Virus record (IMG/VR): IMGVR_UViG_3300008954_000090
Coordinates: 1-44,297 of that record
Source: a virus
Length of the DNA: 44,297 nucleotides
Direction: 5' to 3' (one strand)
How positions within the stretch are numbered: position 1 is the first letter of the stretch; each line of letters opens with the position of its first letter. Below the pieces are notes generated by a model. It did not search any database. It was not told the origin of the DNA and saw nothing but the letters and a program-made list of their open reading frames with translations. Shown one piece after another: positions 2,907 through 25,666 of the stretch. The position numbers and the translations under genes are program-made.

Positions 2907-5900
2907 ATGGGACCACAAAATTTAAATAACTATTATTTTAACAGATTAGACGCACATATTGACTATAGTTCGTACTATGACTTCTTTCTTGCATCTGACG
3001 AGAAAGACTATAATAAGGAAGTAATCTATTCAAAATACCCTATAGGGGCGTGGGGGAATGAAACAGACATCGAAAACGGTGTAGCTTTTCCTTCTAATAC
3101 TTTGGTCGCGTGGTTTGATTTAAGTAAAACCGCAACCACCCAATACACTAATTTGGTATGTAATGAATATCATGCAGATAATACACTTTTAAGTCTAAGT
3201 TATTGGCAAAAATCCCAACCAGACGCTCACGATGCTGATTGTGTTTGTCACACATGTTATGCAAGTATCTATACTGGTGACGGTAGATATGTTACTTCGA
3301 TATGTGATGTGGGACTAACTGGAATTGATAATAGTTTAGTTTATTATATGAGTGGTAATACAAACGAATGTGATTTTTGTTTATCTGCTTTTACCGCCAC
3401 TACAGTATTTGAGGGGTATGTAACAGGAAGTACAATTGCAGGAACTACCGATTTTTCTGTGGACACTTGGACAGTGGGGACGCCAACCGCTGTAAGTAGT
3501 TTAACAACGGGAACTTTCCCTAACACAGGAGGAGTATTAACGAGTACAGCAACAAGTATAAGTGATAATTTTTTATCTTATAATGATTGTTCTTTATATT
3601 ATTATGATAGTTGTTGTGAATTTAGAACTCCTGGGGAACAAGTATATAAATTAAGGTTAAGTGATGCTGAATATTTGGGTACACCGGGAAGTGGAGCTAC
3701 TGCAACCACAGCTTCTATGGTTATGACAATGAGGGCATCAGGAGTTGATGACTACGCTATTTTATCTTTAACTGATACTGTGGGGACAACCAAACTCTAT
3801 TGGATAAACGGAAGTGTAACCTATTCATCGATAGGAACAGGAGGACAATCTGGTACCAGTACCTACCCTCTTGGATTTCATGATGAAGTAACCGTAGGGG
3901 GGTCAATACCTCCAGCAGGTACAACAAGTTCAGTAGTAACATTTGCACAGTGTTACGGATTAAATGGAATTAATGCAGCAATACAAATAAAAAATGCGGT
4001 AGAAGGAGCAAATGGTCATAATGGAACTATTACTGTGACGTTAGACGGAGTGGGAGGAATAACCTTCACCCAATCAGTAGCGGGTGTGGGAGGTAATAAA
4101 ACTACAAAAATAGTTGGTACTTTTGGTCGAGGACTTCAACGAGTTTTTAATAGTGGATATGACCCTTCACCAACATATGCAGCGGGTGGGGGACCTACTG
4201 AATACCAATACGCAAACTTTATAGGAGGTACGGGATTTGTGGGAAGTACTACTTTTGTAGCAAAAACAGATATACAAGTAGGATACATACAGACACCATG
4301 TAAATTGGAGACGTTAAAATTATGGGAAACTCTACCTACCGAATATAGGCACGACCCACTCCATTACGATAGAAGACTTAAATTAAAACAAATAACTGGT
4401 TATACTCAAAACGCTTATGACTATAACATTGTGAGTAGTGCAGATACATGTGCAGGAAACTACGAACAATTATATGGCGGATTTTATCAAGGATTTTTTA
4501 AATTAGAAGACCAACCATATCAAGTTTTACCAACTCGTGCAGAATGTGGGTGGACAGTAGAATGTTTACTTAAAGTAAGACAAAATGCTGAAATTTGTCC
4601 AGCGTATTCTAACACCCTAAATCACAAATATCCAAATAATGCAGGATTCTTTTATTATATGGGTACAAGAGCAGAAAATAAATTTTGGGACCCTTATAGT
4701 GGGGAAACAGGTAAAAGAACATGTAAAGAATCTGTATATGGATGTACGGGAGATACAATGCCACTTCAACAATCAGCGTGTACCGAAACTCGTGATGTGT
4801 GTGGTAATAAACATTTAAGTTGTATTAGTGCAACTACGTATGATAATAGAATTGATGTGGGTAGTAATTCTTTTGGGTTGAGGTTAACTCCAGATTATAG
4901 ATTAGGATTTAGGGCCATATATTATACTGGAACTTGTGTAATGACTGGTTCTTGTATGACTGGGCTTACTTATACTACCGCGTTTACTATGACTGAGGAA
5001 TACACGACTGACCCTATATGTAATTTAACAGGTTCTACACAAATAGGTAATGAACCGTGGTTATTAATAAGTGCAAGGTTTGAAAGGGACTATTGTTGGT
5101 ATGGGTGTGATTTAGAGAATGAAGGGGGAGTTAATGATTTAATAAAAATAATACCTCCAGGTCTGGACGCTATAACATCAAATCCTATTCCAGAACAAGA
5201 AATAGAATTTACTAGAAAGTGGGTAGACGAATTGGCGTATAGAAGAGGAACTTTAACGCTTTTTGTAAATGGAAGGCCAGTGTTAGAAATACCAGATTTT
5301 GAAGAAGTAATACCTAGAAGATTAAACACCAAACCTGAATTACAGGTGGGGGTCCCATACAATATTTCTTGGGGTGGTGGGTCACAAGGACTTTTGGAGA
5401 CGATGACATTTAATGGTAATAATAGTTGTAGGCCTTACCAACGAGACTATAAAGATTTAGGCTTACTAATAGAAAAGAATTTTGCGGGAACCTTTGATGG
5501 TGGGATATCACAAATGAGATATTATATTGAGCCTTTAGGTAATGACGAAATAATACATAACTATTTAGTAAATAAGGATAGGTACCAATTAGTGGATTGT
5601 GCATGTCAAGGAACTGTTTGTCACCCAGGTAGAATATTGTACTTAACTGAAGGTGATTCGGTAGATTTAGATATTGAATTTGTTGCAACATGTGTAGAGA
5701 CAGGTATAACTGGGGATACTTGCACCAACCCATTAGGTATAATCTTAAGTGGGTATACCGCAGCACAGTCGGGAAGTATAACTACTTCTGTTGACAAACT
5801 ATCCTCTTATATAGGAAATAATGACTATACGGGAATTAGATTTAATAGTGTTATAACCGATAATATTAGTAGTTATCAGTTCTATATTGTACCAGATTTG

Positions 5901-6032
5901 GGTACGGGAACAGAAGAAATTGTGAATTTACCGTTCTGCGCGGGGCCAAAGGACGTAATCAAAATAATTATATATAAAATAAACTATAGTTTACCATCAA
6001 ATATGTTGGTATACGGTAATCTTTACAGATAA
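2907..6032 (+). CDS. Large cysteine-rich virion structural protein with LamG/ConA-like region
   Basis: A 1041-residue protein, G/T/Y-rich and unusually rich in cysteine (for example CVCHTCY near residue 110 and CACQGTVCHPG near 905). Residues about 770-890 look like a concanavalin/LamG-type jelly roll: a strand with GTLTLFVNGRPVLEI, then FAGTFDGGISQMRYYIEPL and NDEIIHNY, the usual end of such domains. The probable role is a baseplate-periphery or adhesin protein binding cell-surface glycans. The start chosen is ATG 2907; an ATG at 2900 is in another frame and closes after nine codons. Its stop overlaps the next start (TAATG at 6030-6034), so the two genes are coupled. No enzyme motif was seen. 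Confidence 0.7.
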   Translation: MGPQNLNNYYFNRLDAHIDYSSYYDFFLASDEKDYNKEVIYSKYPIGAWGNETDIENGVAFPSNTLVAWFDLSKTATTQYTNLVCNEYHADNTLLSLSYWQKSQPDAHDADCVCHTCYASIYTGDGRYVTSICDVGLTGIDNSLVYYMSGNTNECDFCLSAFTATTVFEGYVTGSTIAGTTDFSVDTWTVGTPTAVSSLTTGTFPNTGGVLTSTATSISDNFLSYNDCSLYYYDSCCEFRTPGEQVYKLRLSDAEYLGTPGSGATATTASMVMTMRASGVDDYAILSLTDTVGTTKLYWINGSVTYSSIGTGGQSGTSTYPLGFHDEVTVGGSIPPAGTTSSVVTFAQCYGLNGINAAIQIKNAVEGANGHNGTITVTLDGVGGITFTQSVAGVGGNKTTKIVGTFGRGLQRVFNSGYDPSPTYAAGGGPTEYQYANFIGGTGFVGSTTFVAKTDIQVGYIQTPCKLETLKLWETLPTEYRHDPLHYDRRLKLKQITGYTQNAYDYNIVSSADTCAGNYEQLYGGFYQGFFKLEDQPYQVLPTRAECGWTVECLLKVRQNAEICPAYSNTLNHKYPNNAGFFYYMGTRAENKFWDPYSGETGKRTCKESVYGCTGDTMPLQQSACTETRDVCGNKHLSCISATTYDNRIDVGSNSFGLRLTPDYRLGFRAIYYTGTCVMTGSCMTGLTYTTAFTMTEEYTTDPICNLTGSTQIGNEPWLLISARFERDYCWYGCDLENEGGVNDLIKIIPPGLDAITSNPIPEQEIEFTRKWVDELAYRRGTLTLFVNGRPVLEIPDFEEVIPRRLNTKPELQVGVPYNISWGGGSQGLLETMTFNGNNSCRPYQRDYKDLGLLIEKNFAGTFDGGISQMRYYIEPLGNDEIIHNYLVNKDRYQLVDCACQGTVCHPGRILYLTEGDSVDLDIEFVATCVETGITGDTCTNPLGIILSGYTAAQSGSITTSVDKLSSYIGNNDYTGIRFNSVITDNISSYQFYIVPDLGTGTEEIVNLPFCAGPKDVIKIIIYKINYSLPSNMLVYGNLYR

Positions 6033-17370: not shown

Positions 17371-20300
17371 ATGGCTAACAATTCAAACAGAGTTTTTGTT
17401 TCTCCTGGTGTTTACACGTCAGAAAAGGATTTAAGTTTTGTATCTCAGAGTGTTGGGGTAACTACTTTAGGTCTTGCTGGTGAAACTTTAAGAGGACCAG
17501 CTTTTGAACCTATTTTTATAAGTTCATATGGTGATTTCACTACTTATTTTGGTGGTGTAAGTGCAGAGAAATATACAGACTCACAAATTCCTAAATATGA
17601 ATTATCGTATATCGCGAAATCTTATTTACAACAATCGAATCAATTATTTGTAACAAGAGTATTAGGGTACTCGGGTTATGACGCTGGACCATCATGGTCT
17701 ATAGTAACGGTGGGTGATTTAGATTGTGCAACCCTAGAACACGTATGTAATTTTCCAGGTTTATCTGGTCGTTCAACTTGTTGTGGTGGAGCAACAGGAG
17801 CAACTGAATCGTGTGACGTTAGTGTTACAGCTTACATTAACATAACAGGTAGTACAACTCATTATATGGGTAGAGGAGGAGATAGTGTTTTCGCTGTATT
17901 CTCAGGATATAGTTGGGTGGCTCAACATTTAGACAGACCTATAGAATTATATAATGGTAGTTCAACAACACTAAGAACAGATTTAAAACTAATGTATTCA
18001 CAACTTACTTCATACTTAAGTGTTTGTGACCACCCAAGTTTAGATGAAACTGGAGCCCCTACTTCGTTACCATCAAGTTCGTTATCGGGTACCTCATCAG
18101 GTAACCCACTTTCTGGTACAGGGATAGCTTATTCTTATGGATGTCATCAATGGACTAGTCTTGATAGTGGTTGTTCTGGAAGTACTGTTAGTACAGCTCA
18201 AACATTAAATTACCCAATACACCTTACTCCAAGTTCTACGTTTATTCCTTATTCAGCAGCGTCCAGAACTAGTAATAGTAACGCTTTAGGTTTATATAAT
18301 AGATTAGGTTCAGATTGTGATTATAGATGTAACGATAAAAATGATAGTTGGACTTATAATTTCTTTGATTATAATGATACAACACAAAGATATGTAGGAC
18401 GTTCAGTATTAGCCACTGTAGGTTCTTACGAGGGAGGCCAATCACACATCGCTACTGACTTATCGACTTCAGCAGAAACTTGTCTTTATAGTGCGGTTAC
18501 TTCAATCTCAACTTGTCAACTTACAGGTAAAACATTCTGTGATTACCATGATGTGGTTGTAGCAACTTTCCGTTCAAGAGGATTGAGTACTTTATCGTCG
18601 GGTGGACCTGAATATGAAATAACAGGAACAACACATGTAGAATTTGTATGTAGTGGAAGTACATGGCAACAAGTATTAAACGACCCATTCAGTAGTTTCG
18701 GTATGAGAACTAGAAACAAAGACGCTGAAGTAAGATGGTTTGATGTTTCAATGAATGAAACAAGTAAAAATTATATTAAGAGAGTATTCGGTGTAGGTAA
18801 TTTTGATAGAAATAGAAGACAAGTACCTATATTTGTTGAGGAGTCGTATCCAAAAATGTTAACCTATTTCTGGAAACAAGGTTATATTAGAGGTTTGAGA
18901 TGTGATTTATTAGACTTACCTTCATTTAGAGCAGCTAACAATACAGACACAATTGCGTTCTATCAAGAAAAATGGCAAACACCAGTTACACCATATATTG
19001 TTTCTGAATTACGTGGTTTCAAAGTATTCCAATTATTTAGATTCATAACTATACCAGATGGAAACGCAGCTAATAGGGCAGTTAAATTCTCAATAATCAA
19101 TATTTCATTCGAGAGAAAAGAATTTGATATTATAGTGAGAGACTTTAACGATACCGATGCAAACCCTATAATCTTAGAGAAATACACAAGATGTAGTTTA
19201 AACCCAACACTTAACACTTACGTTGGTAAAAAGATAGGAACTAGTGATGGACAATACGAATTAAATAGTAGATACGTAATGTTAGAAATTAATCCAGATG
19301 TTGAGGTTGATGATACATTATGGGACGCTCTACCTTGTGGATTCGAAGGATACCAATTTAGAAAGTACGATTCAAGAAGAGGACCAACGGTTATTTATAA
19401 GGCAAAATATGACTCACCAGGTGAAGTTATATTTGACCCACCATTTGGAGTGGCTACAGGAAATAACCAGATAATTAGTGCGGGAGATAAAGTAAGAAAA
19501 GTTTACTTAGGTATTTCAGACACTAGAGGAATTGACCCTGACTTCTTTGAGTATAAAGGAAAACAAGCACCAACAGATAAATGTGCAGATGGTACGGGTG
19601 AAGACTGGCCTTGTTTAACACAAGGATTCCACATGGACAAAGATGCAACATGTGCTTACACACAAGGAGAACTTTGTAAAATTATAAATTGTGGTACCGA
19701 GTGTTTTGTAGGTTCTTCAGGAACTACAGACCAGTTTGTTGTGGGAGACGCTACATTTAGAGCTGAGCCTACTTTGAATACTGACCCATATTATAGATTA
19801 AATTCTAGAAAATTCACCGTATTACCATATGGTGGTTTCGATGGATGGGACATTTATAGAAAAACAAGAAGTAATTCTGACGCTTATAGAAGAGGACAAA
19901 GTGGTTATTTGGCAGGAGCTTGTATAACTACAGAATATCCAAACGCGACTGGAGACGGTTCATTCAAACCAATTGGTACTTTAGATGCAAGTACAGATTA
20001 TTATCCATACTTAGACGCGATACAAACATTCGCTAATCCTGAAGCAGTTAACATTAACGTGTTCGCTACACCAGGTATTGATTATGTTAATAACAGTAAC
20101 TTGGTAGAGGAGTCGATAGAAATGGTAGAGGATGATAGAGCAGATTCACTTTATGTGACTACTACACCTGATTATAACATGTTTGTAGCGACACCTAGTG
20201 ATATAGATAGTATAATTTCACCAGTTGAAGCAGTAGATAATTTGGAGAATGTAGGTATAGATTCTAACTATACAGCTACGTATTATCCTTGGGTATTAAA

Positions 20301-20883
20301 CAACGACACTGAAAATAATGTTAGAATTTATTTACCACCAACATATGAGGTGATGAGAAATATAGCATTAACAGATAATATTTCGTTCCCTTGGTTCGCA
20401 TCAGCGGGTTACACTCGTGGTATTGTGAACGCGGTTAAAGCTAGAAAGAAACTTACATTAGATGAAAGGGATACTTTATATCAAGGAAGAATAAATCCAA
20501 TCGCAACTTATTCAGATGTTGGTACGGTGATTTGGGGTAACAAAACTTTACAAGTTGCACAATCAGCGTTAGATAGAATAAATGTAAGAAGATTACTTCT
20601 ACAAGCAAGAAAACTGATATCAGCTGTGGCTGTTAGATTACTGTTCGAACAAAATGACGAACAAGTAAGAAATGAATTCTTAGACTTAGTAAACCCAATT
20701 TTAGATTCAATTAGAAGAGAAAGAGGACTTACAGACTTTAGAGTTGTATTATCTGACGACCCACAATTAATAGACCAAAACACATTAGAAGGTAAGATTT
20801 ACATTAAACCTACTAGGTCATTAGAATTCATTAGTGTTGAATTCCTAATAACTCCAACAGGAGCTTCGTTTGAAAACGTTTAA
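17371..20883 (+). CDS. 18: Contractile tail sheath protein, T4 gp18-like, with very large insertion
   Basis: A 1170-residue protein. The N-terminus (FVSPGVYTSEKDLSF...GLAGETLRGPAFEPIFISSYGDFTTYFGG, residues ~9-60) is diagnostic of phage sheath proteins. The C-terminal ~150 residues carry the conserved sheath end (INPIATYSDVGTVIWGNKTL, then ALDRINVRRLLLQARKLI, then LVNPILDSIRRERGLTDFRVV and the final SLEFISVEFLITPTG strand). T4 gp18 is 659 residues. The extra length lies mainly between about residues 115 and 470, a S/T/G/C-rich surface region with clusters such as CCGG. These insertions probably decorate the outside of the sheath. It is followed after 12 nt by an acidic protein gene. Confidence 0.92.
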   Translation: MANNSNRVFVSPGVYTSEKDLSFVSQSVGVTTLGLAGETLRGPAFEPIFISSYGDFTTYFGGVSAEKYTDSQIPKYELSYIAKSYLQQSNQLFVTRVLGYSGYDAGPSWSIVTVGDLDCATLEHVCNFPGLSGRSTCCGGATGATESCDVSVTAYINITGSTTHYMGRGGDSVFAVFSGYSWVAQHLDRPIELYNGSSTTLRTDLKLMYSQLTSYLSVCDHPSLDETGAPTSLPSSSLSGTSSGNPLSGTGIAYSYGCHQWTSLDSGCSGSTVSTAQTLNYPIHLTPSSTFIPYSAASRTSNSNALGLYNRLGSDCDYRCNDKNDSWTYNFFDYNDTTQRYVGRSVLATVGSYEGGQSHIATDLSTSAETCLYSAVTSISTCQLTGKTFCDYHDVVVATFRSRGLSTLSSGGPEYEITGTTHVEFVCSGSTWQQVLNDPFSSFGMRTRNKDAEVRWFDVSMNETSKNYIKRVFGVGNFDRNRRQVPIFVEESYPKMLTYFWKQGYIRGLRCDLLDLPSFRAANNTDTIAFYQEKWQTPVTPYIVSELRGFKVFQLFRFITIPDGNAANRAVKFSIINISFERKEFDIIVRDFNDTDANPIILEKYTRCSLNPTLNTYVGKKIGTSDGQYELNSRYVMLEINPDVEVDDTLWDALPCGFEGYQFRKYDSRRGPTVIYKAKYDSPGEVIFDPPFGVATGNNQIISAGDKVRKVYLGISDTRGIDPDFFEYKGKQAPTDKCADGTGEDWPCLTQGFHMDKDATCAYTQGELCKIINCGTECFVGSSGTTDQFVVGDATFRAEPTLNTDPYYRLNSRKFTVLPYGGFDGWDIYRKTRSNSDAYRRGQSGYLAGACITTEYPNATGDGSFKPIGTLDASTDYYPYLDAIQTFANPEAVNINVFATPGIDYVNNSNLVEESIEMVEDDRADSLYVTTTPDYNMFVATPSDIDSIISPVEAVDNLENVGIDSNYTATYYPWVLNNDTENNVRIYLPPTYEVMRNIALTDNISFPWFASAGYTRGIVNAVKARKKLTLDERDTLYQGRINPIATYSDVGTVIWGNKTLQVAQSALDRINVRRLLLQARKLISAVAVRLLFEQNDEQVRNEFLDLVNPILDSIRRERGLTDFRVVLSDDPQLIDQNTLEGKIYIKPTRSLEFISVEFLITPTGASFENV

Positions 20884-20895
20884 AAACAATAGAAA

Positions 20896-22287
20896 ATGAG
20901 TAGACATATTTTTAAAAAATCACAAGTAGAAAAAGAGTTAGGTCTTAAGTCTGCATTATATGAAACCTACGGGAAGAAATCACAAGAGATAGTTGTTAGT
21001 GAAGAACAGCTTGGTAGGTTATTAGAGAAGTGTGGTGACCCTCAAGAGGAACAATTAGTTCCACCAGCAAATACAAATGTAGAAGATTCAGAGGATTTGA
21101 CTATAGCAATACTCGATGAGGTTGAGGATGAATTAGACTTAGATGAAACTTTTGACGATTATGAGTCTATAGACCATTCAGATAGAGACGAGTTCGACGG
21201 AAGAAAGTCTAGGGTGGTTGGTGTTTATAGAAATGATTCAGACCCAGACCAAAATTTTGAGGAGAGTTTTGACTATGAGAAAGGAGAATTTAATCCTGGT
21301 GATGGGGCTAATGATGAATCTTATGATGGGCATCATTTCAAACATGACGTTATAGGAGCATATGATGATGATTTAACAGGTAAATCTCGTAGAGGTGAAG
21401 TTTATGAAGATTCTGAAGGTGAAGAAACTTATAACTATGGAGAGGACGAAGGAAGAGATGAGTATAGACTAAAACATAGTGATATGAGTAGAAGTCATAG
21501 ACATAATCTTGAAAAAGATATGGATTATGATGAAGACCATGAATTTAGACATGAAAGAGGTACTCATTTTTATGAATCAGTAGAAAATTTGTTATGGAAA
21601 AAAGATTTAGCGAAAGTTCATTTTTTAGTCGCGGAAACTTACGAATCTATTAGAAAAAGTATTTTAAAGGAAAGAGTAAGAGAATTAGATAGAAGAGATT
21701 ACACTCTAAAACCTGGAATGTTAAGTGAAGCACAAGATGAATGGAGAGGACACAATCCAGGAGCTTCAGCAGCTGCAGGAATTGAGAATATAATCGACAA
21801 CATTAAAAAAGCTTGGCATTTCTTAAAAGACGGAAAAACTAGAAAACAAATTGAGAATACTTTGGTGAAGTTAGATAATTTCATGTCTTACACTGCAGAA
21901 TTAGTTGGTTCTGGGAGAGACCAGAGAGCGTCGAGAGGTTATGACCAAGTTACAAGACCACTACCTCATCCAGAAGTAGACGAGCCTGAAGAATTAGAGG
22001 ATATTGATGATGAAATATCTATAAATGAAAGTTGGACGAAAGCTTTAAGATTAGAAGAAGCAACACTTAGTGAAGAACAGTGGATGCAAAAAGCTGATGA
22101 TGATATAGAAAGAAGAGGTACTGAAGGTGTTTTTCACAGATATTGTGTAGATAAGGGATATAAAAATGGTTGTTCAAAAGGATGTTGGGAACATGCAGAA
22201 GATGCAATTGCTGACGGATACTTAGATGGTAGTTTATGGGGTAGAAGAGTCGGTTTAGCGAAAGCATATTGTGAGTCCCGCAGATAA
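20896..22287 (+). CDS. Acidic hypothetical protein with conserved-looking C-terminal Cys/Trp module
   Basis: A 463-residue protein. Residues ~65-225 are extremely D/E-rich with H, Y and R (DNA-mimic-like or calcium-binding-like composition). Residues ~230-345 look helical (LLWKKDLAKVHFLVAETYESIRKSI). The final ~70 residues (WMQKADDDIERRGTEGVFHRYC...GCSKGCWEHAEDAIADGYLDG) form a compact module with C-x8-C-x3-C spacing that could bind metal. No family is recognised. It directly follows the sheath gene and precedes the microprotein gene and terminator, so it is probably late-expressed and virion- or assembly-related. Confidence 0.6.
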   Translation: MSRHIFKKSQVEKELGLKSALYETYGKKSQEIVVSEEQLGRLLEKCGDPQEEQLVPPANTNVEDSEDLTIAILDEVEDELDLDETFDDYESIDHSDRDEFDGRKSRVVGVYRNDSDPDQNFEESFDYEKGEFNPGDGANDESYDGHHFKHDVIGAYDDDLTGKSRRGEVYEDSEGEETYNYGEDEGRDEYRLKHSDMSRSHRHNLEKDMDYDEDHEFRHERGTHFYESVENLLWKKDLAKVHFLVAETYESIRKSILKERVRELDRRDYTLKPGMLSEAQDEWRGHNPGASAAAGIENIIDNIKKAWHFLKDGKTRKQIENTLVKLDNFMSYTAELVGSGRDQRASRGYDQVTRPLPHPEVDEPEELEDIDDEISINESWTKALRLEEATLSEEQWMQKADDDIERRGTEGVFHRYCVDKGYKNGCSKGCWEHAEDAIADGYLDGSLWGRRVGLAKAYCESRR

Positions 22288-22311
22288 ACTAAAATTAAAA
22301 AATAAATAATT

Positions 22312-22374
22312 ATGTGTGATTGTCAGGTATGTAAATGTGGAACAAGTTGTGAATGTACTTGTTGTACGTGTTAA
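22312..22374 (+). CDS. 20-residue cysteine-rich, metallothionein-like microprotein
   Basis: ATG 22312 to TAA 22374 encodes MCDCQVCKCGTSCECTCCTC: nine cysteines in twenty residues, arranged as C-x-C and C-C-x-C units with K, D and E between them. This is the composition and spacing of a one-domain metallothionein, able in principle to bind Zn, Cu or Cd. The ATG is preceded by an A/T-rich leader (AAAATTAAAAAATAAATAATT) of the same type as other genes here, and the ORF sits alone between the 20896 gene and a strong terminator. No long alternative ORF explains the stretch. It is too short for ordinary gene callers. Chance cannot be excluded, but nine in-frame TGT codons in 19 positions are hard to get at random. 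Confidence 0.6.
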   Translation: MCDCQVCKCGTSCECTCCTC

Positions 22375-22393: not shown

Positions 22394-22423
22394 AAAAAAA
22401 ACCCTCCGAAGAGGGTTTTTTTA
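22394..22423. terminator. Intrinsic terminator, bidirectional
   Basis: CCCTC (22402-22406), loop CGAA, GAGGG (22411-22415), flanked by an A-run on the left and a T-run on the right, so it can act in both directions. It ends the sheath/acidic/microprotein unit and also the convergent small membrane protein gene (stop at 22421). Confidence 0.85.
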
Positions 22424-22657
22424 TTTTATAAGCTTTCCACCGTTTCCTAAGATTAATAAGAATATCATTGGAAATAAAAACGGGGCTTTAAGTATATGAG
22501 TAAAAATGTAAAAATTATACCATATATTAGACGGAGAACCATCACGGTCTTCCTCCAGTTTCAGATAATTCTTTTGTAATTGTTTTTCGTTTACAAAAAT
22601 AAATAGTATCATTGCTAGTATGGAAAGGATTAGGTAGGTTAGGATATAAGTCATCAT
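22421..22657 (-). CDS. Small two-helix membrane protein
   Basis: A 78-residue protein with two hydrophobic helices, residues ~3-22 (TYILTYLILSILAMILFIFV) and ~52-70 (THILKAPFLFPMIFLLIL), joined by a polar loop (EKQLQKNYLKLEEDRDGSPSN). The layout would fit a holin-like or other inner-membrane phage protein, but there is no specific family evidence. Upstream on the minus strand (22730-22723) is TATTTTTG, matching the Bacteroidetes -7 element TAnnTTTG. It ends inside the shared bidirectional terminator. Confidence 0.6.
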   Translation of the reverse strand: MMTYILTYLILSILAMILFIFVNEKQLQKNYLKLEEDRDGSPSNIWYNFYIFTHILKAPFLFPMIFLLILGNGGKLIK

Positions 22658-24853: not shown

Positions 24854-25666
24854 ATGTTAAACGAACAAATAAAAAGAATTAAGAATTTAATGTTATTAAA
24901 AGAACAGGATGAGGATAGTTTATCCCGTTATATGGATTCCACATATTTAAAAACACCTGAACAAGCGGGAGTGGATGAGTCTGAAAGTGATAGAATAGTG
25001 TTCGATACAATAAACGACGCTATAGAGCACAAGATGAAGTTGGTTATGTTAAGACCAGAATATGTGTCTGCAGCACGATACCTTATTGATAAAAAAGGTT
25101 ATACGGGTTACATATTAGTTGGTACCGTAATAGGTTTTCCAGGTGGTGATAGTGAACATGGAGTTAAAATGGACGAAGCTCTAGAAGCAATTCAAAATGG
25201 GGCTGACGAACTAGACTTTGTAGTAGATTATAAAGCTTTTAAGAACGGCAATCTAGATAAAGTAATGAAAGAAGTGGCTGAAGGAACCGCTATAGGGATA
25301 GATAAAGGAAAAGTGGTTAAGTGGATTATAGAATCTGCAGCTTTAACCGATGATGAGGTCGCACAACTTACAGGTTTAATTAGAGATATTGTAATAGAGG
25401 CTGTTGGTAATGAAAAAGCAAGAAATGTTTTTGTAAAAACCTCTACAGGATTCTTTAGTCCAGAGGGTGGGGGACCAGGAGGTGCAACACCAGAAGCTGT
25501 TAATATTATGAAGTCCAATTCAGGTCCACTACAAGTTAAAGCGTCGGGTGGTATTTATAGTAAAGAAGACGCTGAAAGAATGATAGATGCTGGAGCTACA
25601 CGACTAGGTACTTCTGCAGCGGTAGACATTATTAAAGGAAATAAAATAGAAAATTCAGATTACTAA
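24854..25666 (+). CDS. deoC: Deoxyribose-phosphate aldolase (DeoC) with N-terminal tag
   Basis: A 270-residue class I aldolase that splits 2-deoxyribose-5-phosphate into acetaldehyde and glyceraldehyde-3-phosphate. Diagnostic segments: VGTVIGFPGG (89-98), GADELDFVVD with D121, FVKTSTGF with the Schiff-base lysine K195, GGATPEAVNIM, and VKASGGI with K229. All expected catalytic residues are present. An extra ~18 residues at the N-terminus (MLNEQIKRIKNLMLLKEQ) precede the fold and resemble the helix-plus-L-x-E tags of the adjoining genes. The stop overlaps the next start (TAATG, 25664-25668), coupling it to the deoxyribosyltransferase-like gene, which is a sensible pathway partner. Confidence 0.92.
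   Translation: MLNEQIKRIKNLMLLKEQDEDSLSRYMDSTYLKTPEQAGVDESESDRIVFDTINDAIEHKMKLVMLRPEYVSAARYLIDKKGYTGYILVGTVIGFPGGDSEHGVKMDEALEAIQNGADELDFVVDYKAFKNGNLDKVMKEVAEGTAIGIDKGKVVKWIIESAALTDDEVAQLTGLIRDIVIEAVGNEKARNVFVKTSTGFFSPEGGGPGGATPEAVNIMKSNSGPLQVKASGGIYSKEDAERMIDAGATRLGTSAAVDIIKGNKIENSDY

Follow-up and report, generated by a model that had tools for sequence, protein, structure and literature searches.

A nine-cysteine microORF downstream of viral tail genes

Can a reading frame of 20 codons, close to half of them specifying cysteine, be a gene and, if it is, what might its product do? The question is raised by a locus in a 44-kb virus fragment, of which the whole 44,297-nt stretch that was analysed is referred to here as the window. 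At positions 22312–22374 of the plus strand, stop included, lies a microORF that encodes the 20-aa metallothionein-like peptide MCDCQVCKCGTSCECTCCTC. The original prediction had placed a metallothionein-like microgene at these coordinates, and both the frame and its C-x-C and C-C-x-C spacing were borne out. The nine cysteines (45% of the residues, nine thiolates within 19 residues) are arranged as C-x-C-x2-C-x-C-x3-C-x-C-x-CC-x-C, such that C-x-C occurs three times and C-C-x-C stands at the end. When the window was simulated 200 times with a first-order Markov model, no surrogate gave a comparable nine-Cys frame and one gave seven Cys; the microORF is not a chance product.

The microORF has the flanks that had been predicted. 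An A-rich leader without a Shine-Dalgarno sequence (22288–22311, plus strand) precedes it, and is a Bacteroidota-type translation start like those of the rest of the family described below. An intrinsic terminator (about 22402–22422; CCCTC-CGAA-GAGGG followed by T7) starts ~27 nt past the stop, the 66 nt 3' of the stop having a folding z of -4.0, and close relatives carry hairpins of different sequence at the same place. The terminator is probably shared with a convergent gene lying beyond it on the minus strand (22421–22657), which encodes a probable membrane protein of 78 aa. In three loci of the window's own group (L122, L146 and L164) the microORF likewise stands between a gene of unassigned function and this convergent gene, which is immediately 3' and whose product is 53% identical.

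The tail sheath gene (17371–20883, plus strand; 1170 aa, 24 Cys; phrog_23 tail sheath, E 7.7e-52) lies two genes upstream, and the microORF is not directly behind it, as had been proposed, since a plus-strand gene for a 463-aa protein of unassigned function (20896–22287) intervenes and ends 24 nt before the microORF ATG. The tail-gene setting makes a late-operon placement plausible. The 463-aa protein clusters with the genes upstream of the microORF in L122, L146, L164 and L038; its own search of phage and viral collections detected no relative. It is acidic and follows the sheath gene, which itself has a long region ahead of the conserved C-terminal sheath part.

The microORF belongs to a family widespread in viral contigs

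The Cys pattern of the microORF was scanned through viral contigs, the resulting counts being lower bounds. Many of the at least 120 viral matches to the unanchored pattern were poly-Cys frames of repeats and were rejected. A stop-anchored scan, in which the first Cys had to be followed by RAN and a stop was also demanded, excludes such frames and returned at least 120 loci. Overall, short ORFs with the pattern number at least about 125 in viral contigs, and the pooled set of at least 178 loci reduces to 124 distinct cores at the DNA level and 115 at the peptide level, with CNCKxCNCGTSCDCSCCNC as the consensus. The peptides are 20–21 aa long and 43–45% Cys, with the consensus M-x(0-3)-C[ND]CxxCxCG[TK]SC[DE]C[ST]CC[ND]C-stop, in which the CxC and CC pattern is invariant apart from one change of Cys to His. 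An ATG stands 1–4 codons ahead of the first Cys and the stop right behind the last, a layout that was also found in all but one ORF of the unanchored scan once the poly-Cys frames had been removed. At the 2185 core positions of the 115 distinct peptides there are two His and not one Phe, Trp or Tyr. An extended form of 36 aa (MRNRQNCNCENCKCQKACNCMKCNCSKSCDCACCDC; L069, minus strand, ~795–905) carries an extra C-x-C-x2-C-x-C module, as if the unit can lengthen.

Searches of named phages, by tblastn with the 20-aa peptide and by blastn with the consensus, returned nothing convincing, although low-complexity filtering may mask true matches. The family may sit unnamed in catalogues of small phage genes such as the survey of Fremin et al.

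Cysteine conservation in loci found through neighbouring genes

It should be emphasized that in a pattern-selected set the conservation of Cys is partly built in, and that only sets anchored on a neighbouring gene test it. Loci were fetched via the neighbouring gene and not via the Cys pattern, and the search bias is thus removed. Among 79 phage loci anchored on a 163-aa protein, cl10, the microORF was present in 29, mostly 12 nt before cl10, and 28 of these copies retained all nine Cys. In the remaining copy, MKCDCKECNCGTTCEHTCCNC (L426:2424 and L528, which are the same contig), Cys6 is replaced by His; this is the sole Cys change among neighbour-anchored copies, and the swap is ligand-preserving because His is itself a metal ligand. 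When C3, C5 and C6 were left free in the pattern, the matching family members kept all three, with the exception of the same His variant.

The other 50 cl10 loci contained no Cys-rich short ORF. Between otherwise matching phages the leader and ORF are cleanly present or absent: in L431–L434 the sequence runs directly from the upstream stop into the downstream leader, and in L435 and L439 only ‘aactgttaa' is left, matching the last two codons and the stop, which would most simply be a deletion scar. Of 76 loci anchored on an FAD-dependent oxidoreductase, 12 have an intact microORF and none a decayed one.

Selection acts on the protein and translation signals are of Bacteroidota type

In 55 disjoint closest pairs pS was 0.33 and pN 0.068 (dN/dS ~0.16), Cys positions being partly ascertained in this set. 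The anchored phage set gave pS 0.80 against pN 0.011 at Cys codons, and pS 0.31 against pN 0.25 at the nearly free non-Cys codons. In the anchored cellular set (16 sequences; see below) pN at Cys codons was 0 and third positions were saturated. Cys codons therefore vary at their third positions but almost never in the residue encoded, indicating that the Cys frame is what selection keeps. The microORF is a protein under purifying selection. The comparison of relatives that had been suggested as a check gave the same ORF in the same position with synonymous-biased changes; for the window's own copy and its closest relatives pS was 0.38–0.72 and pN 0.06–0.16.

Each of the 134 members for which sufficient sequence lies upstream starts with ATG. 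Their leaders are A-rich at -14 to -10; A occupies -3 in 117 and -6 in 102 of the 134. Bacteroidota are characterized by the lack of Shine-Dalgarno leaders, and A at -3 is a positive determinant of initiation (PMC6847099); the family leaders match Bacteroidota translation starts. Terminator-like hairpins occur within 150 nt 3' of the ORF in 32 of 136 members, compared with 6 of 680 random places. The nearest polymerase relatives of the window's phage are those of Salinibacter phages (~25% identity) and these, together with the leader type and the cellular relatives of the microORF, suggest that its host belongs to the Bacteroidota.

Chromosomal copies in marine flavobacteria

A scan of genome contigs identified at least 13 real members, all of them, among the matches listed, in Bacteroidota records; L284, which is among them, is a contig of phage origin within a MAG. 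Seven of the at least 13 share the gene order glutamine synthetase, Na/Ca-type antiporter, microORF, pirin and lipoprotein, in which pirin was named by Pfam and the antiporter and glutamine synthetase by eye. Matches were found in 5 of 397 sampled genomes of the flavobacterial family concerned, all 1.2–1.9 Mb in size, and in 14 of 25 genomes of the genus around G001. Using pirin as the anchor in this streamlined flavobacterial genus, the microORF was beside pirin in all 16 of the genomes with a contig long enough to include the site. All 16 copies keep nine Cys, and one lies on a 1.1-Mb contig. The microORF is thus a conserved gene of many aquatic phages and of some small-genome marine flavobacteria.

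An example of the cellular homologues is MDCNCTQCNCNKSCECNCCDC. Residues 9–11 are mostly GTS in phage copies as against NKS or TKS in cellular copies, and these particular cells are therefore not obvious donors. In one genome (G408; L568 / L251) the nine-Cys frame is intact and ATA stands where relatives have ATG, which reflects either early loss or a sequencing error.

Discussion

Currently metallothioneins are grouped operationally, as a superfamily of low mass and high Cys content with C-x-C or C-C, few or no aromatic residues and d10 metals bound in metal-thiolate clusters. The size, Cys content, motifs and lack of aromatics apply to the family described here, and the invariance of Cys together with the Cys-to-His variant lends indirect support to the putative binding of d10 metals. 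Apo-metallothioneins have no fold. No match up to E 10 was obtained for four members against PF00131 (Metallothio), for which a human metallothionein control gave E 2.8e-23; against Pfam and NCBIfam profiles including the SmtA/BmtA group, which we take to be PF02069, a test weakened by the very short queries; or, for one family member, against PDB chains. For this reason we call the peptide metallothionein-like, as one that probably works in the same manner, and do not suggest that it is homologous to any established family. To our knowledge metallothioneins of the SmtA, BmtA and MymT types occur mainly in cyanobacteria, pseudomonads and mycobacteria and not in Bacteroidota or phages. The openly licensed literature yielded no phage metallothionein, and none was noticed for Bacteroidota.

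Comparison with known systems reveals partial likenesses. SmtA/BmtA and MymT are small, Cys-rich, cytosolic prokaryotic metal buffers, as the microORF product is predicted to be, but are two to three times its length, and SmtA, which binds about 4 Zn, contains a zinc-finger fold (PMC10612145). The copper metallothioneins of Neurospora crassa and Agaricus bisporus (Family 8; 26 aa, 7 Cys) are reported to be the shortest (PMC4755600). Like the microORF product, they consist of one very small Cys-rich domain in which C-x-C recurs; the microORF, in contrast, specifies 20–21 aa with nine Cys, is bacterial or phage-borne and is known from sequence alone, and its CxC-x2-CxC-x3-CxC-x-CC-x-C departs from the Family 8 spacing X2-CXC-X5-CXC-X3-CXC-X2-C-X3 (PMC4755600). 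The beta domain of animal metallothioneins (PF00131) forms an M3Cys9 cluster (PMC9093145); it shares with the microORF product its nine Cys (the M3Cys9 ligand number), its richness in CxC and its freedom from aromatics, but has ~30 residues and other spacing, the CC pair being the microORF's own. The M3Cys9 beta domain may be regarded as the nearest analogue in structure and the fungal copper metallothioneins as the nearest in size.

We consider it likely that the microORF is translated into a cytosolic peptide that buffers metal through its thiolates in the manner of a metallothionein, and that phages carry the gene as movable cargo. The metallothionein-like reading draws on the fixed Cys spacing, the lack of aromatics, the tolerance of His only and a cytosolic start without a signal peptide. 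Against it are the length, 20 residues being short even for a metallothionein, the failure to match any Pfam or NCBIfam profile or PDB chain when the human control does match PF00131, the fact that metal transporters, sensors or ATPases were not noticed as recurring neighbours in either phages or cells, and the ATA that replaces ATG in L568. Of the original prediction, a real gene, purifying selection at the protein level and the hallmarks of metallothioneins stand. Metal binding, the choice of metal and a benefit to the phage are what we infer, and the most economical role would be that of a metal buffer, both during infection and in cells that bear a copy.

In the mechanism that we propose, the nine Cys would wrap a small metal-thiolate cluster, probably of ~3 divalent ions (Zn/Cd) or ~4 Cu(I), much as in the beta domain of animal metallothioneins, which also has nine. 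The cargo unit would consist of the A-rich leader and the ORF, sometimes with its own terminator, slipped between other phage genes. During infection the peptide may buffer the zinc or copper of the host cell, either capturing metal freed by the breakdown of host protein and DNA or supplying phage zinc proteins, and the chromosomal version in streamlined marine flavobacteria would serve its own cell in the same way. If metal binding is true, this would be a very small natural metallothionein (20–21 aa and nine Cys, compared with 26 aa and 7 Cys in fungi), common to phages and streamlined marine flavobacteria and missed by the profile libraries searched. Metal buffering would then become a testable part of marine phage infection, and the peptide a minimal model for metal-thiolate clusters.

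It could be argued that the cysteines serve instead in redox chemistry, as a sink for reductant or oxidant, and that the FAD-dependent pyridine-nucleotide oxidoreductase encoded downstream perhaps acts on them. Such an enzyme (Pyr_redox type) lies within ~500 nt of the microORF in at least 36 loci, typically ~118 nt away. We regard this thiol/redox role as unlikely, however, as the oxidoreductase usually occurs without the microORF (present, as noted, in 12 of the 76 anchored loci), a terminator-like hairpin often stands between the two genes, the cellular copies checked have no oxidoreductase neighbour, and the exact nine-Cys spacing with a lone change of Cys to His points to metal ligation.

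The peptide might alternatively be a zinc chaperone for phage zinc proteins, such as the treble-clef cl10 or primase, or for Cys-rich tail proteins, the latter having been raised in the original prediction. In one phage group the microORF precedes, by 12 nt, the cl10 gene, whose product has an invariant, zinc-ribbon-like C-x2-C...C-x2-C set (A1) and gives a weak DUF4379 match, and in another group it lies a few genes ahead of primase. The chaperone reading is nevertheless improbable, in view of the 50 of 79 cl10 loci that lack the microORF, the absence of a zinc motif from most other neighbours examined and the occurrence of the microORF in bacteria. With respect to tail proteins, the window does encode many-Cys proteins, yet the family does not track tail genes: nothing ties the microORF to the protein of 33 Cys (2907–6032; 1041 aa) or to the sheath with its 24, and the family is found in numerous phage neighbourhoods that are unrelated to one another, which indicates that it behaves as cargo, and on chromosomes without nearby phage genes. 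Metallation of Cys-rich tail proteins thus finds no support in gene context and was rejected.

It seems rather doubtful that the peptide actively strips proteins of the host, or those of anti-phage defence, of their zinc, copper or iron-sulfur metal and so helps host shutdown, the flavobacterial copies then being co-opted or protective. A disulfide-rich secreted or signalling peptide of phage or host, bacteriocin- or defensin-like, might be suggested by the small size and high Cys content, but is very unlikely given the absence of a signal or leader peptide (in 134 of 134 members the ATG and the first Cys are 1–4 codons apart), the odd number of Cys, the few hydrophobic and no aromatic residues, and the fact that no processing or export genes were noticed nearby. 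A conserved element of RNA or DNA, such as a hairpin linked to the terminator, in which the Cys-rich frame is incidental might be argued from the close terminator and the mild folding of the ORF RNA (z = -1.7), but is refuted at the codon level, with synonymous changes far above replacement, third positions of Cys codons free, terminator sequences that differ among relatives and a fixed ATG and stop, and can be given hardly any credence.

Three minor observations remain alongside the metallothionein-like reading. In the window, 24854–25666 bears a by-eye resemblance to a deoxyribose-phosphate aldolase gene in phage. The oxidoreductase family (A2; for example L203:5273–6631) is a strongly conserved FAD/pyridine-nucleotide enzyme of 430–470 aa found in at least 560 viral-contig stretches. 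At phage loci with this oxidoreductase (for example L059, L135 and L183) a recurring hairpin, GTGGCCCAATCATTTGGATTGGGTCAC followed by T8, lies ~52 nt past the microORF stop, between the microORF and the oxidoreductase gene; it has sequence variants that keep the pairing, and is either a terminator or another RNA element.
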